The notes under the pieces: model-generated | The model's input: the letters and a program-made list of their open reading frames with translations, nothing else | What the model was told of the DNA's origin: nothing | The model's database searches: none | Position numbers and translations under genes: made by a program | DNA from: Dryococelus australis | Lineage: Eukaryota > Arthropoda > Insecta > Phasmatodea > Phasmatidae | Assembly: GCA_029891345.1 (NCBI GenBank) | Contig: CM057005.1 | Location: 60,839,760-60,903,759 of the forward strand | Length of the DNA stretch: 64,000 nt | Direction: 5' to 3' | Shown: piece by piece, positions 3,018-61,745 of the stretch | How positions within the stretch are numbered: position 1 is the stretch's first letter | Layout of the letters: the number at the start of each line of letters is the position of its first letter

Positions 3018-4736
3018 TTTAGTATTAGTTCTCAGCAGGAAACGATCACGACCTTTGGTAAGGAAAGGGGAATACAAGTTTCTCGAGAAAATTAAAACTG
3101 ACCTTCTGGGCGAGGAGGGGGGGGGGGTGAGTAAACGTGGCGCCCGCTGAACTATTTAGGCGCCTAGGCGATAAAATTAGCTTAGTTTTATTGGCCCTAG
3201 CACTCTCGAACACGTTGAATGGGATAACATTTATTAATCTCAATCTTCGACGCAACAGAAGCCAGTTGTATGCTTGAAGGACTGTCTTCAGGCTTATCCA
3301 TCGGAATCTCGCTTCTAAGTGACAAATTGTAACCTACGAGTCCGTTAAAAACAGTGTATTTCGATTTGTTCTACGATCCATAATACATTGAACAGGCGAT
3401 ACGTATAGACTAGATACCCCCCTAGCAGCCAAACAGAAGTGCTTACAGTTATATTTGGTTGACGATAAAGTGATCATTCTTGAAATAAACCGTTGAACAA
3501 AATCAGTGCATCAGTTGTACATATTTTAACACAAGCAATTACCGCAATACTCACAGTAAGTTGGCAGCAAGTTAGAAGTAATTCTAGTCCTTATAACCTC
3601 ACTAGACACAATATTAAACATTAAAGGTCCGTGAAATTAATCACTTTCTCTTTTTTTTTTATGTATATAAGAATAATAACGGCGTAAAATAAAACACGAG
3701 TGTTTCTAACAACTTCATGACATCACTTGGCTGAAGTATCGTTTCAAGTTTTCAGGTCCATTTTTATGTACAGTATAGTCATTTTTAACGTCTTTGCCAT
3801 TCTCGTAGTCACATACTCTTAAATACGGGAATTTATGTTACAGTTTATATCCCGTTCCCTGGTGAGTTTTCGTAAAGTGACCTACGGGGCAGTTCGAAAT
3901 CCAAAATATGAAATAATTATTTTCATAATACCTAAAACATATGGTACGTAATTATAATTACCATTTAGATGTATTTCGACGTATCTCGTTGCGGGAAGTC
4001 TAATATTACACGTTATATGCCGATCTGGGTAATGTGTCTATATGAAATGAGAGTTGGTTATACTAATTGAAAATGTGAAGAAACTTAGTACGAGTGCATT
4101 TGATTATATCTGCGATATTAGATTGCAATAATGGAGCTTCAATTGCGTGTCTTATTATTTACGTAGCCAACAGGAATGGATTACGAGTGAGTCGGTACCT
4201 CGGTACGTAATTCATTTTTTTTAAATAGCAAATAACGCTCAGAAAGAGGTAGATATTAAATGTGGTACATTCCTACTATAAATTTAATAGGCTGATACAG
4301 CTCCTTGACGTTTCGTTCAACTTTTCAGTAAGTCCGAGCCAACATAAACAACGACAATTCCAAGCTGCCGCGAATAACCTCAAGCACGGTCATGAAAATG
4401 ATTATGTATTAAACGCGTGAATGCAATTTCATCAAATACGTTGTCATCGGTTAGGTTTTTTTTTTTTTTTTTTGTTAGTACTGCGGTTAAATTAAGTTCA
4501 CATCGCTGTAGTTATTTTGATTTTCTAAGATAAAAGAGATTTGCTCGTAAGGTAATTTAGACCAAACTATCTTGTCGTTGAACGCTGTGAAAACCAAATG
4601 CACCAGGACGGATATTCATGAAACTTGCATTTAGTGATGAGTATTATCGTGGACATGTGTTCTGAAAATATGAATCAATTTGGTTGAGCCACCGATGTTT
4701 TATGACAACTATTTTCGGCATTCGTAGTATCATAAT
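3018..4736. other. AT-rich DNA, nothing recognised
   Basis: Only a G-run near 3117-3127 and a T16 run near 4457-4473 stand out. No coding signal, inverted-repeat element or tRNA-like sequence was found by eye. Confidence 0.5.
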
Positions 4737-10928: not shown

Positions 10929-10964
10929 ACACCGCTTGACAAGAGGGATATGCTCATTATAATC

Positions 10965-11359
10965 CATTTACGGTTACTTCAGACTTTTCTGAAGTCCTGC
11001 TAAAGTTCTACTTCCAAGATATTCCTCCGCCTCAGCTTAACTAAGTCTGCAGAATTACTTCAGCGGACAACGCACCGTATTCCTACGCACCCATTTGTAA
11101 TAATATTTTTTAAGAGAACAGTTTCTTACTAGGCATCACCAACGCACATAGTTTTCTCATTGTTTTAAATTAAATATTATTAACGGAGAAAATATAAATA
11201 ACATTTCAATTTAACCAAAATGAAATATTACTTTTATGAACGCAAGAATTAAGACTCATGTGATACGTGGAATATTTAGGAAATAACTAAACACGTCATA
11301 CATGGGGTGATTTTTCAAAGGTTTGATTAAAAAAATGTGAAGAAACCGCGAATAGACTA
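10965..11359. mobile_element. MITE, second subfamily (GTTCACGG kin)
   Basis: Runs from about ACGGTTACTTCAGACTTTTC to ACCGCGAATAGACTATAG. It is homologous to the inverted copy at 23042-23463, the partial copy near 36090-36240 and the split copy at 47700-49013. One end resembles the CCGTGAACAGCCTATA end of the main subfamily. The inner phrase TCTGAAGTCCTGCTAAAGTT parallels the main subfamily's TTGAAAGCCCTGCTTAAGAT, so the two groups share an ancestor. Confidence 0.7.
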
Positions 11360-21644: not shown

Positions 21645-22158
21645 CACAGAGAAGTAGGTTTTGTTGAATCAAACAAGATTTGTTTTGGTGCAACCAAATT
21701 ATTTGTTTGTATAGGGGCAGTAAAATATTTTGTTGCTGAAACGAACTTATTTTGTTGTTCTCATTAGGTTTGGGGCAAGATTTGTAAGATTTGGTTGGTG
21801 AAACTAAAGATTTGTTCGGATACACGTACATTGAGCAGTTTGGGACGATAAAAATAAATTTTACAAGTTCGGCCGAGTTTTGATCCTAGATCACCTGCGT
21901 CCGAGCAGTAATCTCAACTAACGTGACCACTGTTGACACCGGAAAGCTGTTAAATTGATATACTGTAAATACTGGGCAACATGTGCAAACAAATACATAT
22001 ATCAAGTTTTACAACTTCTCGTGCCAGTTTCTTGATGTGTTGTCTTATTAATGTGTTTGTACGATTGTTAAGCATCAATAGATGCACTAACAAACACGGT
22101 TACTGTCACAATCGTCACAAAAAATACAATCAAACTCTCGAGCTGTCAAATGAGTAGC

Positions 22159-22256
<98 letters not shown>

Positions 22257-22447
22257 GGTTCAACAAAATATGTTTGGTCCAACGACGCAGAGATTTTGTT
22301 TATTCAAACATATATTTTGTTAGAGAAACAGAAGTAATTTTGCTACTTTTCAAATTTTGTTTGCTGTACACAATATATTTTGTTGGGGCAACTAAATATA
22401 TATTTGGCCCTATACAAACAAATATTTTGTTCGATTTTCTCTCAGTG
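21645..22447. mobile_element. CACTG-type inverted-repeat element inside SINE-2
   Basis: Left end CACAGAGAAGTAGGTTTTGT; right end, reverse complemented, CACTGAGAGAAAATCGAACA. Comparison with other SINE-2 copies, which read ATGCGAAAA at this point, shows the insertion and suggests a 2-bp TG duplication. The arms are full of TTTTGTTGAA/ACAAACAA-type oligomers, so both can fold. The centre holds (CA)n and (TA)n runs. CACTG-like ends suggest the CMC (EnSpm/Chapaev/Mirage) group; this is an inference. No transposase is present. Confidence 0.75.
22161..22253. repeat. (CA)24 followed by (TA)22 microsatellite
   Basis: Pure dinucleotide runs: AC from 22161 to about 22208, then AT to 22253. They sit in the centre of the CACTG-type element. 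Confidence 0.98.
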
Positions 22448-22545
22448 TGCGAAAATCCTGGAGCGACCTCGCCGCGAATCGAACGCCAGTTTCGCCTACG
22501 GGGAAGGCGAGTAGTCCGGCCTCTATAACACCGCGGTCACACGAA

Positions 22546-23041
22546 TGTTAAAGGTTCCGCCTGTCTGCAGCTATTTTGCCCGTTCCAGGCATATAAATGC
22601 TTCAGCTCTAAGGCTGACTCTCTCTCTCTCTCACTAACCTTTCGCCTCATCGCCTCTATGCACTGACGTGCAGTATTTCGGTCGGCGACTCTTCTGAACT
22701 TGGCTGAACGGTGAAATCATATTTCTATAAATATAAAAGTATGATGTGTGCCTTAAGACAAACGTAATGCTTCCGCGTTAAAAATTTACCAGCTTTAACT
22801 GACTGAAAAAAAAAAAAAAAACCCTGTTTTAACCATCTTCCCAGCCCAACAATAATTATCCATAGAGCTTAAATGAGTAATGAAACTTGCCTTTGAGTAC
22901 GAAACGTTCCTTACATGCTTTTCTTATTTAGACATCGACATCAGCATAAAATACTCAAACGTTTTTGAATCACCCGTTTCATGCCGAAATTCTGCAAATC
23001 ACTTTCAGCCGGGCGGAGCCATTACTTCGTGGGGTAGTACT
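22546..23041. other. No gene seen; short CT repeat
   Basis: A (CT)n run lies at 22617-22633 and an A-run at 22806-22821. Nothing else is recognisable. Confidence 0.5.
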
Positions 23042-23463
23042 TATAGTCTATTCACGGTTTCGCCACACTTTTTGACTAAAACCTTTGAAACATCACATCA
23101 TGTATAACGTGGTTTGTTATTTCCTTAATACACTATGTATAACAAGCATTTTATGCTTGTATTAATGTAAAATACCTTATTTTTTCGTTAAATTGAACAT
23201 TTAATATTATTTTATCTATAAATTACATTTCATTCATAATAAATATGAAAAACAAAAGGGAGAAAATTGTCGTCTTGGTAATGCATAGTAAGAAATAGTT
23301 CTTATGCAAAATATTAATACACTGAGTGCACACGAATGCGGTGCGTTGTCCCATTGGCGTAATTTTCTACGCATTCTTAAGCTTGGTTTGCATGAGGCGG
23401 AGGAATATTCTGAAAGTAGAATTTGAGTAGGACTTCATAAAAGTTGGCAGTAACTGTGACTGG
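23042..23463 (-). mobile_element. MITE, second subfamily, inverted copy
   Basis: Begins TATAGTCTATTCACGGTTTC and runs to about CAGTAACTGTGACTGG. It is the reverse complement of the copy at 10965-11359, with landmarks TAGTAAGAAATAGTTCTTAT and GCATGAGGCGGAGGAATATT. It lies directly beside the main-subfamily copy on its right, the same neighbour pairing as at 11.36 kb. Confidence 0.75.
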
Positions 23464-23471
23464 AAGTAGCA

Positions 23472-23898
23472 TATAGGCTGTTCACGGTAAAATGAGCATT
23501 TTTGATAGCTCTGCTTAAGATCCACTCGTATACCCATCGTGTATTATTCTGCCTTATGTAAAATTAACACTGCAATGGGCCTTATCACCTAATTTATGCT
23601 TCAATCAAATGAAGCTGAGAAATGATTAGAAAACCAAATATTTTACAAATCTGCTAATTTTTACACTTCGATACATAAAAATAAACAGAAAGCGAAAGAA
23701 ATCATTAAGTACATTACAAATAGTTGTCTAACACTTTTTATTCGACGTTAAGATATGGAACTACTTTCCTTTCAACGTTACCAAGTTTACTGGGTGCATG
23801 TCACTCAGTGCGCCGGTTAAAATATATGCAGGCAGTGGCAGTGACTTTTTTCTAAGATTAATTTCTAAATTGCTCACTTTATCGTGAACAGCCTTTAA
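23472..23898 (+). mobile_element. MITE copy, main subfamily
   Basis: Begins TATAGGCTGTTCACGGTAAA and ends TGCTCACTTTATCGTGAACA GCCTTTAA. Internal landmarks match the copy at 11358-11785. Well preserved, ~427 bp. Confidence 0.92.
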
Positions 23899-24417
23899 TA
23901 TAGATGACTTTGGCACATATTATCTGGCATGATGGAACGGGATCCGTCCTCCATCTTGTTTGACGTCACAGGTGCGGCCGGCGGCCTTGTCCATCTACAC
24001 CCTCGCCACTCCCAACCCACATCCGGCCATTCCAGCGACCCTTAACCCTAAAAATTATTTTAATAAAAAAATTTCTGTAAAAATTATTTTATAATAAATT
24101 TATTAAATTAAAAAGTGCTTGCCCGCCACATTGGATTTTTTAATCATCATATCAGTTTAGTGTGTCATTGCAGATCATAATACCATTTTCCACTTTTTTC
24201 ATGTATGTAATTTAAAAAATGCAATCTATGAGGAACTGAAAAAAGGATTATGTTTGAAGAGACAAAGTAAGGGCATGCAAAAAATGTTTCTGCTTAAAAA
24301 AATAATGGACTATTCACATGTAATCAACGTACAATTTAGTTTATGCAATCTTGCTTATCAAAAGTTAACGTGTAGTTTCCGACTTCTAGTGGTTATTAAT
24401 TGGTTTTACTTTAAATA
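23899..24417. other. No gene seen
   Basis: Includes a small GC-rich patch at 23940-24040 (GACGTCACAGGTGCGGCCGG) followed by AT-rich DNA. I see no feature beyond that. Confidence 0.45.
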
Positions 24418-24601
24418 GCCGACCTCCCGTGGCGCAGTCTGTTGGTACGCCGCCGATCTTGGTTGCGGGAGGTTTGGGTTCAAATCCTAGATAAGGCATG
24501 GGTGTTAATTGAAGTTAGGTTATAAGATAGTTTGTAAGTCGCTTTCTGGTAAGCCTTCAGGCATAACACCGCAGGGCGTGAATAAACCCTTTACAATACA
24601 A
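24418..24601 (+). mobile_element. SINE-1 copy (tRNA-derived), well preserved
   Basis: Starts GCCGACCTCCCGTGGCGCAG with a canonical B box, GGTTTGGGTTCAAATCC, about 60 bp downstream. Then comes CATGGGTGTTAATTGAAGTT and a CAATACAATA tail. The head resembles a tRNA with A and B boxes in the right order. This is the better of the two copies and defines the family in this window. Confidence 0.9.
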
Positions 24602-24755
24602 TACTCTAGAATAAAACTTTTCATAGAAACGGAACAATTAATATAAATACTTACTTTACTTTTCTGTTAATTATTGAGTTTGGAGTTTGCACATTTGAGA
24701 ACGGCAAGAAACACTTCCAGATTACAGTAAAATCCTTTCGCGCAAGAAAATTATT

Positions 24756-24977
24756 GTTACGGCCAAGCGAGTACCAGCTCGTGATATTTATTGTTACGGC
24801 CAAGCGAGTACCAGCTCGTGATATTTATTGTTACGGCCAAGCGAGTACCAGCTCGTGATATTTATTGTTACGGCCAAGCGAGTACCAGCTCGTGATATTT
24901 ATTGTTACGGCCAAGCGAGTACCAGCTCGTGATATTTATTGTTACGGCCAAGCGAGTACCAGCTCGTGATATTTATT
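24756..24977 (+). repeat. Six tandem copies of a 37-bp hairpin unit
   Basis: GTTACGGCCAAGCGAGTACC begins at 24756, 24793, 24830, 24867, 24904 and 24941; the copies look identical. Each unit contains CGAG-TACCAG-CTCG, an inverted repeat able to form a small hairpin. The copies adjoin directly without spacers, which excludes a CRISPR array. The identity means very recent amplification. Confidence 0.97.
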
Positions 24978-25978
24978 TTTCCGTTACCAAAGCTGACCGA
25001 CGGGTAGCAATATCGTAGTTTTATTTCATCAGTGCATTAATACTAAACACTAATTAAAAATAAAATTCTAAAGCAGGCACTCAAATTGGCGGCAAACCAA
25101 TCATTTCGCAGATATCGGAGAATTTACATTCGATTGTTCTGTGCCACTACTTCGAAAATCATAGTGGACGATCAAGAGGGTAAATTCGTTTTCTAAAATT
25201 TTACAAATTACGTACTTTTTCGTTCTGATATATAATAATCGTCTGAAAAAAGGAAAACAAGAGAAAATTACTTTCGAAAACGTATGAAACGTTTTAGAAT
25301 AATGCTCAATTTATATATATTTTCGTACATATGTCAAAATCATGCAAAAGTTATACATTTGTCTAAAACTCAGAATTGCTGCTAATCTTATTAAAACAAA
25401 TATATATATATATATATATTTGCAAAGCGGTTTGCTCGTATCTCAATTTTAACTTTTGTGACGAAGTAAAAAGTAAAAATAGTTAAAATCTAAAACGTTA
25501 CCGCGGGTGAACCAGTGTTCCGGTTTCAAAGAAATTGCAACAAACATCTCCTATTATATGAAACACTTGACCTGAAACTACATATTTTGGTAAAATAAGT
25601 TTTTTTTTATATCTGCACGGATCAGTATTTTAAGTTATAATGAATTTAACTTTTTCATCATTCCAGAAAATCATAGAATATCCTCAATATCCAGGGAAAA
25701 AAATTATTGTCTCGTGAATAGCCTCATGACGCCATTAAATATCGCATGATCGTGGTCGACATACGTGCGAGATTGATCAAGAAATCGACGTTTAACCAGG
25801 ACGCGGCTTTGTCGAGACCATAGACATAAGATGACGTAGACTGCTTATTCGTCTTCTGCGCATGTACCCAACATTGTCCTACCCCAATCCTATAAAACTG
25901 TCAAAATTACATGGTCAACAGTGATGAACGTGTTTGTTTATATCGTAATTTTTAAACCACAAGCACTATTATATTATT
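24978..25978. other. AT-rich DNA, nothing recognised
   Basis: Only a (TA)n run at 25400-25419 stands out. Confidence 0.5.
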
Positions 25979-26850
25979 ACTTGCTGGTAGCTGGCACCAA
26001 CTCAGCTGCCCCGTGCCGTAATCGGAGATCCACCTCGCCCTCCCCTCTTCCTGGAACGATTCTCTCGCAGCCTCCTGATTCCTCCTCCCCCTTCAGGGAA
26101 TCCCGTGACTGCCGGCAGCGGCGAGATTTGCTGGCGTCACAGACCTACTCTCGCCTGCAAGAGTTTCCTATACGTTTAGTGACGACGCAAGGATGTTCTG
26201 GTGAGACTGGCTAGCACCTCAGCCCTCCGCGACGCATCACGCGAGTTGGGGAAGATTCTAGGTGGCGGCCTAAGACCTATATATACTGCCGCAACCCAGC
26301 GGCCGGCAGTCTTTGATGGAGGCCATCTGGCCGAGTGTGCGCGAGCGAAGAGATGTGTGGACGACGACTTGGAGATTGCAAGACGACGGCGAGTGAGGTG
26401 TTCGTGGCGTGAATGGACGAGAGGGTGTGAAACCGACGAGTGAAGCCTACTGTGCATGAGGGCACTTGGAGGTCTCTAGAACGTTTGCAACTGGCGTGAC
26501 ATGGACTGAACTGAGGTGGGACTGAAAGGAAACGTAGTACTGATTTGATTGTAAATATTCTGTCAGTTTGGACACACATTTTACAGAATATCTGCATGTG
26601 GTGATTATAAATTGTATTAAATCGGAGTAATTAGTTGTGAACAGTAAGTGATATCAATTTATTGTGAGATTTTGAGTTCAGAGAATTTTGCTGTAGTAAT
26701 TGTAAATAAAATAAGGAAATTATAATTAATTATTTACTTGATTAAGATTTTCATCCCTTAACGAACTTGGTATAGCCCACTTTCTGGAGAGAGAAATTGT
26801 AGCAATATTAATAAAATAATTTTATCATTTTGAATTTAGTCCAACTGCAA
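25979..26850 (+). mobile_element. LTR-like fossil, boundaries uncertain
   Basis: A GC-rich block (25995-26500) contains a TATATATA box near 26278. It is followed by an AT-rich tail with AATAAA near 26706. This promoter-then-polyadenylation layout is typical of a long terminal repeat, perhaps a solo LTR. No internal coding region adjoins it and I could not find a target duplication. An alternative is a host promoter with a non-coding first exon. Confidence 0.3.
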
Positions 26851-27797
26851 TACAAATCCGTTATATGAAGTATAAAAACATCTCTAAGAACATGTTTAAA
26901 AATCAGTTTTCGCTAGGCGTGTTGGCAGAAAAGTATTTCATTGATGGGACACGGAGATTGGTTGTGCGCAGCCAGCGAGATCAGTTTACCTCATCTTTAC
27001 TCTATGGTCGAGACGGACCTGCCATCATTCTTTCTGCTACATCCGCTGGCTCTTTGCAAGCGATTTTCCCGTGGTTCAGCCTCACGACCTAACACGAGCC
27101 GCTGCTGTTCGGTCAACCATACGCCCGTTAAAAAAAGAAAAAGCTCTCGAAATAGAGCGCAGGGAGAAAAAGTTAGTATTAATGGCATTCTGGGCCAGTA
27201 AAAACGAGAAAACTTTATTAAAAAGGGACCGGTCACCAGGAATGAATGATTCACGGATGACAACACAGTACGCTTTCACCGAAGGATACGTTTGGTGAAA
27301 ATTTTCCTCACTCACAAAGGGTGAAATGACTCCACATTGGACGTGCTCTCTATTTCGCAATTTCTTGAGTTGACATATCGTGAAACTCAATGTCTGATTT
27401 TTCTCACCCACTAATAATATTTTGAATCTTATAAAAATAAAAAGGAAGGTAAGCAGTATAATGAGTCATGCACCAAGTGTGGCAATAAAGATTATTATAA
27501 TAATTGAAATACTTGTATATCTATGCCGTTTGTACGGCCACATATTTTTTTATTTTGAAATTTTTTATTATTTAATTTTTTTATTATTTTAATAAACACA
27601 AAATTAAATAAAACTTACATGCATGTAGCAATCATATGGTATAACACAAATATACAGTCCAGATGGAAGTTGGTAGGAATAAAAATTATTAAAAAAAAAA
27701 ACTTTTTTTAAATTTGACTTATTGACGCTATAAGTTATTACGGTATGCGGACATTAATTCGACTTCTCGCATGAAAACTTTAACTTTAAAAGTCATT
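26851..27797. other. No gene seen
   Basis: Frames of 75-109 codons occur on both strands at 26865-27411, but none shows a recognisable domain and they overlap each other. The rest is AT-rich. Confidence 0.4.
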
Positions 27798-57590: not shown

Positions 57591-58162
57591 AACTAGTCAC
57601 ATCAGTGTTAAATTTGAGTAACCCAGTTTCAAAACTCGTTATGTCCAAATAAACAAAAGTTTCAAGAAGTGCGAAAAACTGCCAATTCAGTTGTATTAAA
57701 AATAGAGACATGAGGTTTTTTTTGTATAATTACTACGAAAAAAAACCCACAGATAATCACAAAGCGACAACAAAATGGAATACATAAACCTCAGGAAAAT
57801 GATGAAAAATATTTGGACATGACGAGTTCTGCTGCATTGGCAAATACATAATGGGTTTTGTATCAGTTCAGATAGTTGAAGGCCATTGAAATATTTGGGT
57901 CAAACAGGAGTAAACAAAAATTGCCTGTGTTTACGTTCGTGAAATGATCATCTGTCGTTCCTCAGCAGTGAATGTAACACAGAAATCCTTTACCAAGATG
58001 AAATATTGTTAATTTATTTATTACTGAACATACAGGAAAAAACAATCCTTCTTCTAAAAATCAATGCTCTCTCCTAGTAATGGTGTAATATAAGAACTAA
58101 ATAACTGACAAAATGTAAAAGTAGCAAGAATAATAAAACAATACACCAGTGAATTTATCACT

Positions 58163-60341
58163 TTACAGAACCAAGCCCTCCTCCTCTTCAAAAATGTCTC
58201 CAAGATCACAGCTATATTCTGTAGGTGACTCATTTCTAGCTTCCTGTTGCTGAAAAATGTTCTCAAAGAAAACTAATTCTTACTTTTCCATCCAATTTAT
58301 TCCAAAGAGATTTGTTTTCAGTGTTTGTGTATATAGAATCTTTTCTTTCTTCAGTACTGTCCGTACATCTGTTAGTCTAGGTGACATGGAAATTAAAAGT
58401 TTACCACGTTTCAAAATGCTTTTCCCTTCCCCGGTGTCCACGTTATAGTTCATTTCACATCTCACTACACAGCTGCCTGTTTAAGTTTTTCGAAGAATGA
58501 TCCTTTTACAGGGTTCCAGCTTAAAATGCCATGAACCAGGCTCTTTTGCTACATGGCTTACAGCCTCCTTCCATTCTAACATAGGGCAGTCTTTTCCAAG
58601 TCGGATGACAATTGCATGCGATTCTATTATGTCAATATAACTTTGGTCGATTAGAAGGGTGGAATGCTACTTGACGTCAGCTTCAATGTGACCAAAAACC
58701 CTGTCGAGATGAATGAATGAATGCCCCACTACTAGGAACATCACCTTTACCTCCTTCACAGAGAGTGGAGCATCTTGGGATAACAACTTCTCTAATGTAC
58801 CAATCAAAATATTCTTTTTATCTTGGCCTCCGCACCTATCGGCCACCAATTTAAGAGTATGGAAACTTGAAAGATCGGTGGAAATCAGTATGTGGTAAAC
58901 AGCAGACGCTTAGGTAATTCATTTTCCAACCAAACATAGGCAAAAGTTCTCTTTTTGCCTTGAGGATCTGTAGAAGCACCCTGACAGATGGTAAAATTGC
59001 ATAGGTACATTTGGCGCGAAAAGTAAGCAGCTTGGCCTGGTATCCTCAGTATGGGTTGATTTTTTTTGGCAATCAAAACCAAAAATGATCTCACCATCAT
59101 TATTTTGACATAAATGTTCATAAAACGCATTTGCTCTTTTTTTGTGTAGATTTAATTCTGTTTGCAAATCGTGCTTCTTGCCTGCATCTTTGCACGACTT
59201 AATTTGTTCCGTGAGAGAAATACAACTATAACAGCAGTCTGTAGGGGGAGAGCCAAAACCAATATTGTAATCAATATCGAAAATTGAGCGGAAATAATCG
59301 TACTTCACCCGTAGATCTGGATCACACGATTGTAGATATAGGGACCACAGTTTTATTAATACTAAGTTCACTCGGAAAATATTGACGGGTTGTGTTCTTG
59401 CTTCGGCAGTAATGGGATTCTAGTACCTGAATAGATTCAATAAACATTTTCGCTTCTGGCTTCTTTCCAGCATAAAGAGATGACTTTTCTGTCACCACAT
59501 CGTTGCTCAGCTGGAGAATCACTAGTCTCAAGTAACTGTATCCACAGTAATTGCACCCTGTATCTTGATACACCCAACGTGTTAATAAAGAGTTGTTTAC
59601 ATACAGGCACATTCTGAACATTGCTGTCTTTCAAGCACGGCATAAAATACTTCGCTGTTACCTTTTTTCTACGCGTTTTTGTGTTACCACTGTGGCTTCT
59701 CTGATGATGGGGGGGGGGGGGGTGGTTCCACCTAACATGGCGTAGTATGAAGTTACTTTGTACTTGCCGGTCTGCATTAAAGTAAAACTTCTGATGGAAG
59801 CGCATCACGTCTTGCATTGTCACTTCGCTGCACCGATAAGCATCTACTGCCTTGTGTTGACAGGAACATCGTGGTGGAAATGAGGATGCTGAATACCTGC
59901 AACATAAAGCAGTAATGTAATAATTTATTATTTTGCGAGACACTAATATGTGCGACTTGAAGAAAGGCTAGTGATTCGCAGCACAACTAACATTTTCAAG
60001 ACTGCTACAACACTAGAAATTATAGTTGAACATACTACTACCAGAAGAAATAGGTTAGGTGTAAGCCTACATTCTATCATGCACGTATGAATGTGTAAAC
60101 GGAAAACTCAAAGTAATAAAATAATTGGATCATTAAACAGCAGCACACAAACATGACTTGTTTGGTACTTCTTGTTATAGACATTCTCACCTCAACCTGT
60201 TGCTGTTATATAGATGACAGTAAAATTAGGTCACAGTATAAGGTAGACTTACCTCATTCGTTTTGCAACATTTCTTTTCAACATTTCCTTGCTTTTCCTT
60301 TTCTTACGCCCTTTTCCAAATTTCGCAGGTTGAACTTGCAT
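58163..60341 (-). pseudogene. DUF7869-like protein, decayed probable transposase
   Basis: About 600 codons in two exons. Exon 1 (60341-60253) opens with a short basic segment (KGRKKRKSKEMLKRNVAKRM). Exon 2 (59896-58163) continues in the same reading phase with a cysteine-rich segment (RCSCQHKAVDAYRC), then VCKQLFINTLGVSRYRVQ, ESHYCRS near 59420, a C-x2-C pair near 59236 (FGSPPTDCCYSC), FDCQK near 59070, ADRCGGQDKKN near 58840, GHSFIHLDRVFGHIEAD at 58726 and a C-terminal part with NVDTGEGKSILKRGK. From memory this order matches a multicopy insect family annotated as DUF7869. The three acidic positions (FD, AD, LD/IE) suggest an RNase H-like nuclease. The copy is dead: about four frame changes, two of them at A-runs, and three in-frame stops. 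Identity of the family is recalled, not searched. Confidence 0.8.
59897..60252 (-). other. Intron of the DUF7869-like gene
   Basis: The minus strand reads ATGAG|GTAAGT at 60253/60252 and TTATGTTGCAG|GTATTC at 59897/59896, canonical GT-AG borders 356 bp apart. The split codon (AG+G, arginine) keeps the frame, and family-like sequence resumes directly after the acceptor. Retention of an intron shows the copy was not retroposed from mRNA. Confidence 0.75.
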
Positions 60342-60859
60342 AGGATTGATAATTACACGAGTCTTAAAACTAGTGAAAATGCTGAGATTAAATACTCCAC
60401 AATTTTCTCTGTTCAGCTCAGATGAGGTCCCGAAACGAAATTTACATTTTTGCAATATCTGCAAGGACACCAACCCAGAACCTAAAAAATTCACCTCATA
60501 ATACACAAAGCAAAATATATTAAACTGCACAACATAAATTTCTATGCTGTAGTGAATATAGGACAAAACGAGTTTTGCAACAGTTTCACACATAGCTGAA
60601 GTAAATACTTGGGACGTGAGTTATGTAGCAGTTTCCACTCCATGTACATAACGGCTTCTGCAGCATTATGGGTTGTGGACATAACGAAGTCTGCTGCAGT
60701 TGCTAGAATTCATCGCGCAAATACGCATACAATTAGCGAATTTTGACACATTTCTCTACTGTAAAAGATGCAGATTTTTATTCTGATCAAGTTGGTAGTA
60801 CAACATCAAATTCGAATATTTTTTTTTTGGACATGAAGAGTTTTGCAACAGGACTACTC

Positions 60860-61268
60860 TTTAGTGTGACGGTTACACAATCTGCAGAAACGAGAAACTA
60901 ATAAATGATGTCTAAAATGTTCCATTTTATGCGAATGAACCAGGACGAAAGGTCTTTGATAGCGTAAATTTAACAGGCTGGAGCCTGATTCATTAGATCG
61001 ATTAGTCCGACCAATAGGCAACCCACCTATTAGTGAGAGTTCCGAGTGTGGTGCCGAGTTCGGTAAGCATTCGATCGTCCGTGCGGTTAACTGCATGTTT
61101 CCTCTTGACGTTACCTTTGTCGCGTCTTTCCTCTTGAGGACCGTTTCAGGAGCAGATACATGAGCGCTGCGATCGCAGTATGCTAGGAAGACTCTTTATG
61201 CTGCCATGTTATACTTTTCATGGAGCGTAACTGAAAAAAAAAAAAATCCTGCAGCGCATGGCAGCGGA
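60860..61268. other. No gene seen
   Basis: Mixed DNA with an A-run at 61230-61242; no feature could be supported. Confidence 0.45.
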
Positions 61269-61745
61269 TTAAGAGTGGAATGGACCCCCGTTTGGAACCC
61301 GGCGTCCAAAGTCAAGAAGCGAGGGAGCGATACGGGCGACAATAACACGCGCGCCTAGTGCCTCAGCGCCCATACGCGCAAGGCGTGTAGTGTTTCCGTC
61401 GTGACGCTGCACTGTGCAAATTATATCTGTAACAGCTGGGGTTTTATTACGCGCGATGAAGGACCACAGATTAAACTACGCCCGTATCTTAGTACTCTTC
61501 TCTTGCCGTTTAAGGAAACTGCATAGGCAAGGATTAAAAATGCAATAGTTAACCATTTTCATGATTTTTTTTTCTGCAAGAATACGCTTAATATTACAGA
61601 AGTAAAAAAAAAAATAGGTCATAGATATCAGTTTTTTTTTTCTTTCTGACAAAAAGTCGTATTTGCATAACGTTTTTTACCAAGATACGCGTATTTGCGG
61701 TAACAACTATTTCACAGAAAATTCGGGGGTCCATCCCACTCTTAA
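61269..61745. mobile_element. TTAA-flanked element with GAGTGGAATGGACCCCCG ends
   Basis: TTAA at 61269 then GAGTGGAATGGACCCCCG; the right end, reverse complemented, reads TTAA then GAGTGGGATGGACCCCCG, an 18-bp inverted repeat with one mismatch. The 477-bp element is GC-rich on its left side and AT-rich on its right, and has no coding frame. Confidence 0.88.

Follow-up and report, generated by a model that had tools for sequence, protein, structure and literature searches.

DUF7869 as the probable catalytic core of a DDD transposase in a decayed DNA transposon of Dryococelus australis

Introduction

Among described DNA transposons, the closest in character to the element reported here are those of the Sola group, reportedly first described by Bao et al. 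in 2009. The portions of the literature consulted give Sola elements DDD transposases (with a triad of three aspartates), 4-bp target duplications, lengths mostly of 2-9 kb and inverted repeats of 11-1124 bp, and count bacteria and metazoans among their hosts (PMC10741241, in part). For slime-mould Sola2 elements the duplication is printed as AWWT (W being A or T), for example ATAT, AAAT or ATTT (PMC3627910, in part), while piggyBac and Kolobok elements are described as using TTAA (PMC7351741 and PMC9587614, both in part). Here we report on 64,000 nucleotides from the phasmid Dryococelus australis (contig CM057005.1; the whole of this stretch is called the window, and the species' genome the host genome), in which positions 57616..60859 hold what is very likely a decayed cut-and-paste DNA transposon with a spliced gene for a DDD transposase whose RNase H-fold core is DUF7869. 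This protein family (PF25273) was listed as of unknown function in the copy of Pfam used. A preliminary description of the window had proposed a DNA transposon with a DUF7869 transposase, and the proposal is now supported by shared ends, target duplications in relatives, empty sites, the triad and a predicted fold.

Inverted ends and the repeated end motif

The element is bounded by imperfect terminal inverted repeats, in which the ungapped pairing of 57616-57656 with 60819-60859 agrees at 33/41 positions. The inverted pair of about 33 bp first noticed at 57616-57649 and 60826-60859 is present, with 28/34 matches over that length. The boundaries are as follows.

57616..60859, minus strand (that of the gene): whole transposon copy, 3,244 bp, with ends common to host-genome copies
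57616..57656, no strand: left terminal inverted repeat, a left boundary common to 5 other copies
60819..60859, no strand: right terminal inverted repeat, a right boundary common to 7 other copies

When the 5.5-kb region was resampled 40 times with a Markov model, the best comparable pair at that distance reached 27/41. Eleven other 5.5-kb stretches of the window were compared, the last of which overlaps the left part of the element; ten gave 24-27/41, and 22001-27500 gave 32/41. Taken alone, the inverted pair is therefore unlikely but not unique in the window, and the question is settled by the boundaries in copies outside the window, not by the pair itself. The second pair of inverted 41-mers, 2.5-4.5 kb apart within 22001-27500, may belong to another element.

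The inner part of each inverted repeat contains an end motif that recurs within the element, with six sites in all at 19-20/23 matches. Four sites have at most 3 mismatches (0 expected), and the shuffled-element control gave 0.02 per element. At a threshold of at least 17/23 the motif was found nowhere else in the window outside the element; at the same threshold the sister copies C4 and C17a hold eight and four sites, respectively. The preliminary description was right about the inverted ends and had overlooked this internal recurrence. The 22-bp motif is likely to be a binding site of the transposase.

57625..57646, minus strand: end motif in the left inverted repeat, a likely transposase-binding site
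57815..57836, plus strand: subterminal end motif, left (motif scan)
60561..60582, plus strand: subterminal end motif, right (motif scan)
60644..60665, plus strand: subterminal end motif, right (motif scan)
60677..60698, plus strand: subterminal end motif, right (motif scan)
60829..60850, plus strand: end motif in the right inverted repeat (motif scan)

Copies in the host genome

A DNA search of the 3.4-Gb host genome with the window element gave 23 candidate places, all of which were scored. Among these, the matches shared a right limit in seven copies (query 3360-3363) and a left limit in five (query 110-119), within a few bases of the inverted ends, and the flanks beyond differed between copies; the remaining places were fragments or had diverged at one end. 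In another DUF7869 family, referred to here as family A, a search with one element (best 40 of 122 candidates scored) gave 27 places, query included, that span query 1-6 to 2855-2866 of 2,866. The element thus moves as a unit with fixed ends. Copies sharing both the ends and the gene at a constant distance, which the preliminary description had suggested looking for, were found in the window's family and in family A. L044 (G000:C7:165908150-165908600, ~209 bp matched) is a right end of this family standing alone, without the gene, as in the window's relatives it may be found as a remnant or a non-autonomous form.

A profile search of the host genome for DUF7869 returned 1,555 first-look candidates and at least 150 scored matches, many of them with open frames. 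Twenty loci of 10 kb were examined; they were picked mostly for open frames and are therefore not a random sample. Inverted repeats surrounded the DUF7869 gene in 17/20 loci and were family-specific, with end sequences alike within a family and different between families. Loci L009 and L010 were without the left end present in their siblings. A blind search, in which the best 28-mer inverted pair of each locus was set against a shuffled control, placed that pair at the element ends in 14/20 loci, picked other inverted repeats in L010, L014 and L019, and was not clearly above the control in L009, L013 and L016.

Target duplications and empty sites

Target duplications were read in 29 family-A copies: 20 additional ones, chosen among the scored copies for being complete, and nine of the ten from the 10-kb loci, the left-truncated L010 having been dropped. 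Ends were placed by the inverted repeat's own sequence, and partners were permuted 1000 times as a control. Identical 4 bp stood outside both ends in 19/29 copies, against a permuted mean of 3.8 and a maximum of 10 in 1000 permutations. Other lengths were rejected at 0-2 of 29 copies each (2, 1, 2 and 1 for 2, 3, 5 and 6 bp, and 0/29 for 7-10 bp). The exact duplications were AATT (7), AAAT (3), ATTT (3) and ATAT (2), with AAAC, ATTG, ACAT and AGTT once each, so that 15/19 had the form AWWT. Seven other untruncated elements gave an exact duplication in L023, L017 and L022, agreement at 3/4 positions in L027 and L019, and at 2/4 in L015 and L026; in L024, as in L026, inverted repeats were present and no exact duplication was found. 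Reading the target duplication, a check put forward in the preliminary description, therefore gives 4 bp in relatives, with the tetranucleotides at the window copy differing from each other.

57612..57615, plus strand: ATTT adjoining the left end, possibly a worn target duplication
60860..60863, plus strand: TTTA adjoining the right end, not an exact duplication in the window copy

Empty sites, which had also been proposed as a check, were readable within the host genome for relatives from two families, L028 and C4. The joined flanks of L028 continue unbroken through a relative in L016 (~70% identical), where the ATTT-like tetranucleotide occurs once. C4, which shares 89% identity with the window copy as its nearest sister, lies within a dispersed repeat, and six empty relatives of that repeat place the insertion between the inverted repeats. 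The joined flanks of L026 likewise span relatives of its target repeat. Copies of this dispersed target repeat also occur in the window (23135-23464 and 10960-11164), where they span the joined flanks of L026.

The decayed gene and the DUF7869 protein

A single recognisable gene lies between the ends, on the minus strand, with about 600 codons, one intron and clear decay. The preliminary description had read it as one decayed DUF7869 gene of that length, and this is borne out by matches to PF25273 of both the open piece (E 9.2e-8, 32.3 bits) and the read-through (E 4.5e-8, 33.4 bits; cut-off 26 for both); besides DUF7869, no Pfam family scored above its own cut-off. By-eye reading found at least 4 frameshifts and 2 or 3 in-frame stops. 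The intron borders (GTAAGT...CAG) are preserved in two sister copies. At about 59710-59725 the damaged frame contains a long run of G.

60253..60341, minus strand: exon 1, with a basic N-terminus and a start codon placed from the open frame
59897..60252, minus strand: intron with the borders GTAAGT...CAG
58163..59896, minus strand: exon 2, the damaged DUF7869 transposase frame, with a presumptive 3' end
58667..58909, minus strand: open piece with the DUF7869 core
59072..59074, minus strand: codon of the first triad aspartate (FDCQ), assigned by eye, the piece being misaligned at that column
58838..58840, minus strand: codon of the second triad aspartate (ADRCGGQ), by alignment
58703..58705, minus strand: codon of the third triad aspartate (GHSFIHLD), by alignment

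Three aspartates stand out in 36 aligned pieces of the protein, with a common spacing of D-75-D-41-D. They were conserved in 10/13 (D1), 29/33 (D2) and 30/32 (D3) aligned rows, counts in which misaligned window pieces were scored as misses. The distance from D2 to D3 is 40-44 residues (41 in 23/29; 44 in the window's family). The window copy keeps D2 and D3 by alignment and D1 by eye, and D2 and D3 are invariant in a 20-row alignment of bacterial and host-genome proteins.

An AlphaFold2 model of a 435-aa host-genome frame, built with 31 rows, had a mean predicted local distance difference test (pLDDT) of 71. The modelled order is strand-strand-strand-helix-strand-helix-strand-helix; D1 lies on the first strand, D2 directly follows the fourth strand, and D3 opens the final helix. 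This is the order of DDE/D nucleases (third catalytic residue glutamate or aspartate), a predicted RNase H fold. Foldseek searches of the PDB at E <= 0.001 matched the Mos1 transposase (1.3e-4) and the integrase of prototype foamy virus (PFV; 7.5e-4) and no others. A model of the bacterial protein L126 had a pLDDT of 82, with TnsB and Mos1 as best matches at 2e-3 to 1e-2. A search of viral fold models at E <= 0.001 gave three matches, of which two were MutS-like and the third unnamed; an IS4-like transposase ranked 24th. Comparison with known transposases, likewise suggested beforehand, thus points to a predicted RNase H fold that carries a DDD triad and resembles those of Mos1 and PFV integrase. 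We regard DUF7869 as very probably the part of a cut-and-paste DDD transposase that forms its catalytic core.

The PF25273 model, which spans the second and third triad residues, matches 28/31 rows of the host-genome alignment. When the 31 alignment rows and 13 bacterial proteins (see below) were compared with Pfam, DUF7869 alone was above its cut-off. Known transposase families of Pfam, NCBIfam and PHROG were rejected, none being above cut-off for the DUF7869 proteins tested; one bacterial protein touched DDE_Tnp_ISAZ013 at 14.5 bits against a cut-off of 26.9. A sequence search of the PDB gave no convincing relative with a solved structure.

Bacterial relatives

In prokaryote genomes, 23 contigs matched a degenerate nucleotide pattern encoding DNC-x-[GA]-QNKN, and 11 of them encode DUF7869-like proteins. 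The addition of L146 and L147 by a Pfam model search brought the set to 13 distinct bacterial loci, and 13/13 proteins were above the DUF7869 Pfam cut-off; those of L146 and L147 are divergent (731- and 659-aa frames) and come from short loci. Sources include Desulfocicer, Thiomargarita, a Nitrospirales, a Legionellales and a Verrucomicrobia. The other 12/23 contigs were not DUF7869: six hold short chance frames and six a conserved Pelagibacter protein (frames of 330-344 aa; L119, L122, L123, L132, L133, L138) in which DNCLAQNKN occurs by chance and can mislead motif searches for this family. L149 and L152, weak matches that fell short of the Pfam cut-off, were excluded as relatives. In four genome samples, which overlap and include the seed genomes, 4/192, 7/389, 1/369 and 1/198 genomes were above the cut-off, compared with 0/14 controls; DUF7869 is rare in bacteria.

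Inverted repeats of 39-64 bp surround the gene in 8/13 bacterial loci (43/43 bp in L126); none were found in L121, L136, L139, L146 and L147, some of these loci being cut by contig ends. AWWT adjoins 15/16 bacterial ends, and the two tetranucleotides are identical in 3/8 elements. Without L124, which contains a second transposase gene (discussed below), these values are 13/14 and 3/7, and without both L124 and L131 they are 12/12 and 3/6. In L131, from Thiomargarita, the contig repeats its own end inverted at its start (1-75 / 3598-3672, 75/75), probably an assembly artefact that leaves the right flank doubtful. The L128 gene is divided between two frames.

A tree of 39 rows, from which rows of fewer than 90 residues, the window piece among them, were left out, set the bacterial and host-genome groups apart with support of 100/98, subject to a long-branch warning. 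Searches of viral contigs with two motif patterns and with the proteins of L126 and the window, of plasmids with L010 or L126, and of phages with L126 found no relative.

Relation to Sola and other superfamilies

The DUF7869 elements share with Sola, and with Sola2 in particular, a DDD transposase, a 4-bp AWWT duplication, inverted ends, a size of 2-9 kb and an occurrence in bacteria and metazoans, as far as the consulted parts of the Sola papers describe them. The third triad residue is D in 30/32 rows. The 4-bp duplication is found in other DUF7869 families and is inexact in the window's own, and the AWWT form of Sola2 recurs in 15/19 exact duplications and at 15/16 bacterial ends. Because the DDD triad, the 4-bp AWWT duplication, size and bacterial occurrence agree with the printed descriptions of Sola, the DUF7869 elements are likely to be Sola transposons of the Sola2 type. 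They differ in that slime-mould Sola2 elements are printed with inverted repeats of 12-21 bp and an 888-aa transposase (PMC3627910, in part), compared with about 26-64 bp and about 600-730 aa in DUF7869 elements. The Repbase criterion, as given in the part of the source consulted, is a match with E below 0.005 after PSI-BLAST iteration (PMC4455052).

A less favoured possibility, and in our estimate an unlikely one, is that the DUF7869 transposons form a separate DDD superfamily that reached its 4-bp AWWT preference independently of Sola. Such a superfamily would comprise, in bacteria, a rare insertion sequence family whose inverted ends are G-rich and whose targets are AWWT and, in the host genome, a eukaryotic branch both large and diverse, neither being recognised as a transposase by Pfam or NCBIfam; we regard this wider version as similarly doubtful. 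It is favoured by the absence of above-cut-off matches to the transposase families of the three libraries, and by the fact that the likeness to Sola is one of printed descriptions. Against it, the combination of DDD, 4-bp duplication, 2-9 kb and occurrence in bacteria and metazoans is the printed set of Sola marks (PMC10741241, in part), and for Sola2 elements the duplication is given as AWWT (PMC3627910, in part).

Other superfamilies were compared in the same way. Mos1, of Tc1/mariner, is the best fold match of the predicted DUF7869 catalytic core, but identity is about 10% and there is no mariner Pfam match. A TA duplication was rejected, as the 2-bp register held in 2/29 family-A copies against a permuted mean of 2.7. 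The piggyBac and Kolobok elements resemble DUF7869 elements in their 4-bp duplication, and their TTAA was seen in 0/19 exact duplications.

Weighing of the evidence

Several observations weigh against a transposon with DUF7869 as its transposase. The tetranucleotides flanking the window copy, ATTT and TTTA, do not form an exact target duplication, and a clear duplication was seen in no copy of its own family: C13 lies in an AT repeat, and the flanks of C17a agree at 3/4 positions, its duplication being ambiguous because it was inserted in the length-variable T/A tract of a repeat. C4 and its empty relatives overlap by 3 alignment columns (ATC / GTC), one fewer than expected from a 4-bp duplication that is exact, and no empty site of the window copy was found among the best 40 of 4,451 candidates, which were scored. 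Exact duplications are missing in 10/29 family-A copies and in 5/8 bacterial elements; in the latter the ends were placed manually, at the outer G-rich start that the two share. In the window's family, divergence was without a clear excess at third codon positions. Foldseek template modelling scores (TM-scores) of the top transposase and integrase matches are low (0.21-0.46), other RNase H-like proteins, TnsB and Hermes rank closely behind Mos1 and PFV integrase, and the full-length L126 model had no match at E <= 0.001 (best TnsB, 2.1e-3). One of the 20 host-genome loci, L013, had no inverted repeats. Gene copies lacking the ends, or ends unrelated to the gene and at no constant distance, had been named in the preliminary description as what would refute it; with ends in 17/20 loci, L009 and L010 without the left one and L013 alone without any, we do not judge the idea refuted.

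A further point of this kind is the bacterial locus L124 (Nitrospirales), where an ISL3-family transposase gene (239-1579) stands between the ends of the DUF7869 element. It could be taken to favour the view that DUF7869 is a passenger or host-derived gene and that the real transposase is another protein, as could the facts that transposons are known to capture genes and that decay leaves no function visible in the window copy. However, the ISL3 gene has its own ISL3-like end and is therefore read as probably an insertion nested in the DUF7869 element. DUF7869 is also the longest frame in seven other end-bearing bacterial loci, in the window and in 14 elements scanned in the host genome; any other open frame of at least 120 aa in those elements is shorter. 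All families carry DUF7869 despite unrelated ends, and it has the triad and a predicted fold of DDE/D transposases. We consider a passenger gene very improbable. Lower still do we place the idea that the inverted pair is a chance match or fold-back in a decaying multi-copy host gene family: the ends are imperfect and another stretch of the window holds a similar pair, but scattered copies with fixed ends, target duplications and empty sites contradict it. The empty sites refute it, as do the resampling and the shared ends.

Proposed mechanism and implications

In a transposon with a DUF7869 transposase, the enzyme would bind the 22-bp motif of the inverted ends and subterminal repeats and would then excise the element. 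The excised element would be joined to AT-rich 4-bp sites of the AWWT type, and this joining would leave the 4-bp duplication. We infer cut-and-paste transposition rather than another DDE pathway.

The kind of element is known; what the family libraries used apparently leave unannotated is the role of DUF7869 as the core of a transposase, together with those bacterial relatives that bear ends. A literature search found no mention of DUF7869, which is weak evidence of novelty as most subscription papers lay outside its scope. DUF7869, filed as of unknown function, would then be selfish DNA with very many copies in the host genome, and any gene count or expression table with DUF7869 proteins in it would be counting transposons. 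The enzyme is directly testable, given the fixed ends of its elements, their AWWT targets of 4 bp and the open frames of full length among its bacterial relatives, and the bacterial elements may offer a small system for learning how a Sola-like DDD transposase works.

To the right of the element, the window contains a further inverted pair of 22 nt (61269-61290 / 61724-61745) that is 95% complementary.

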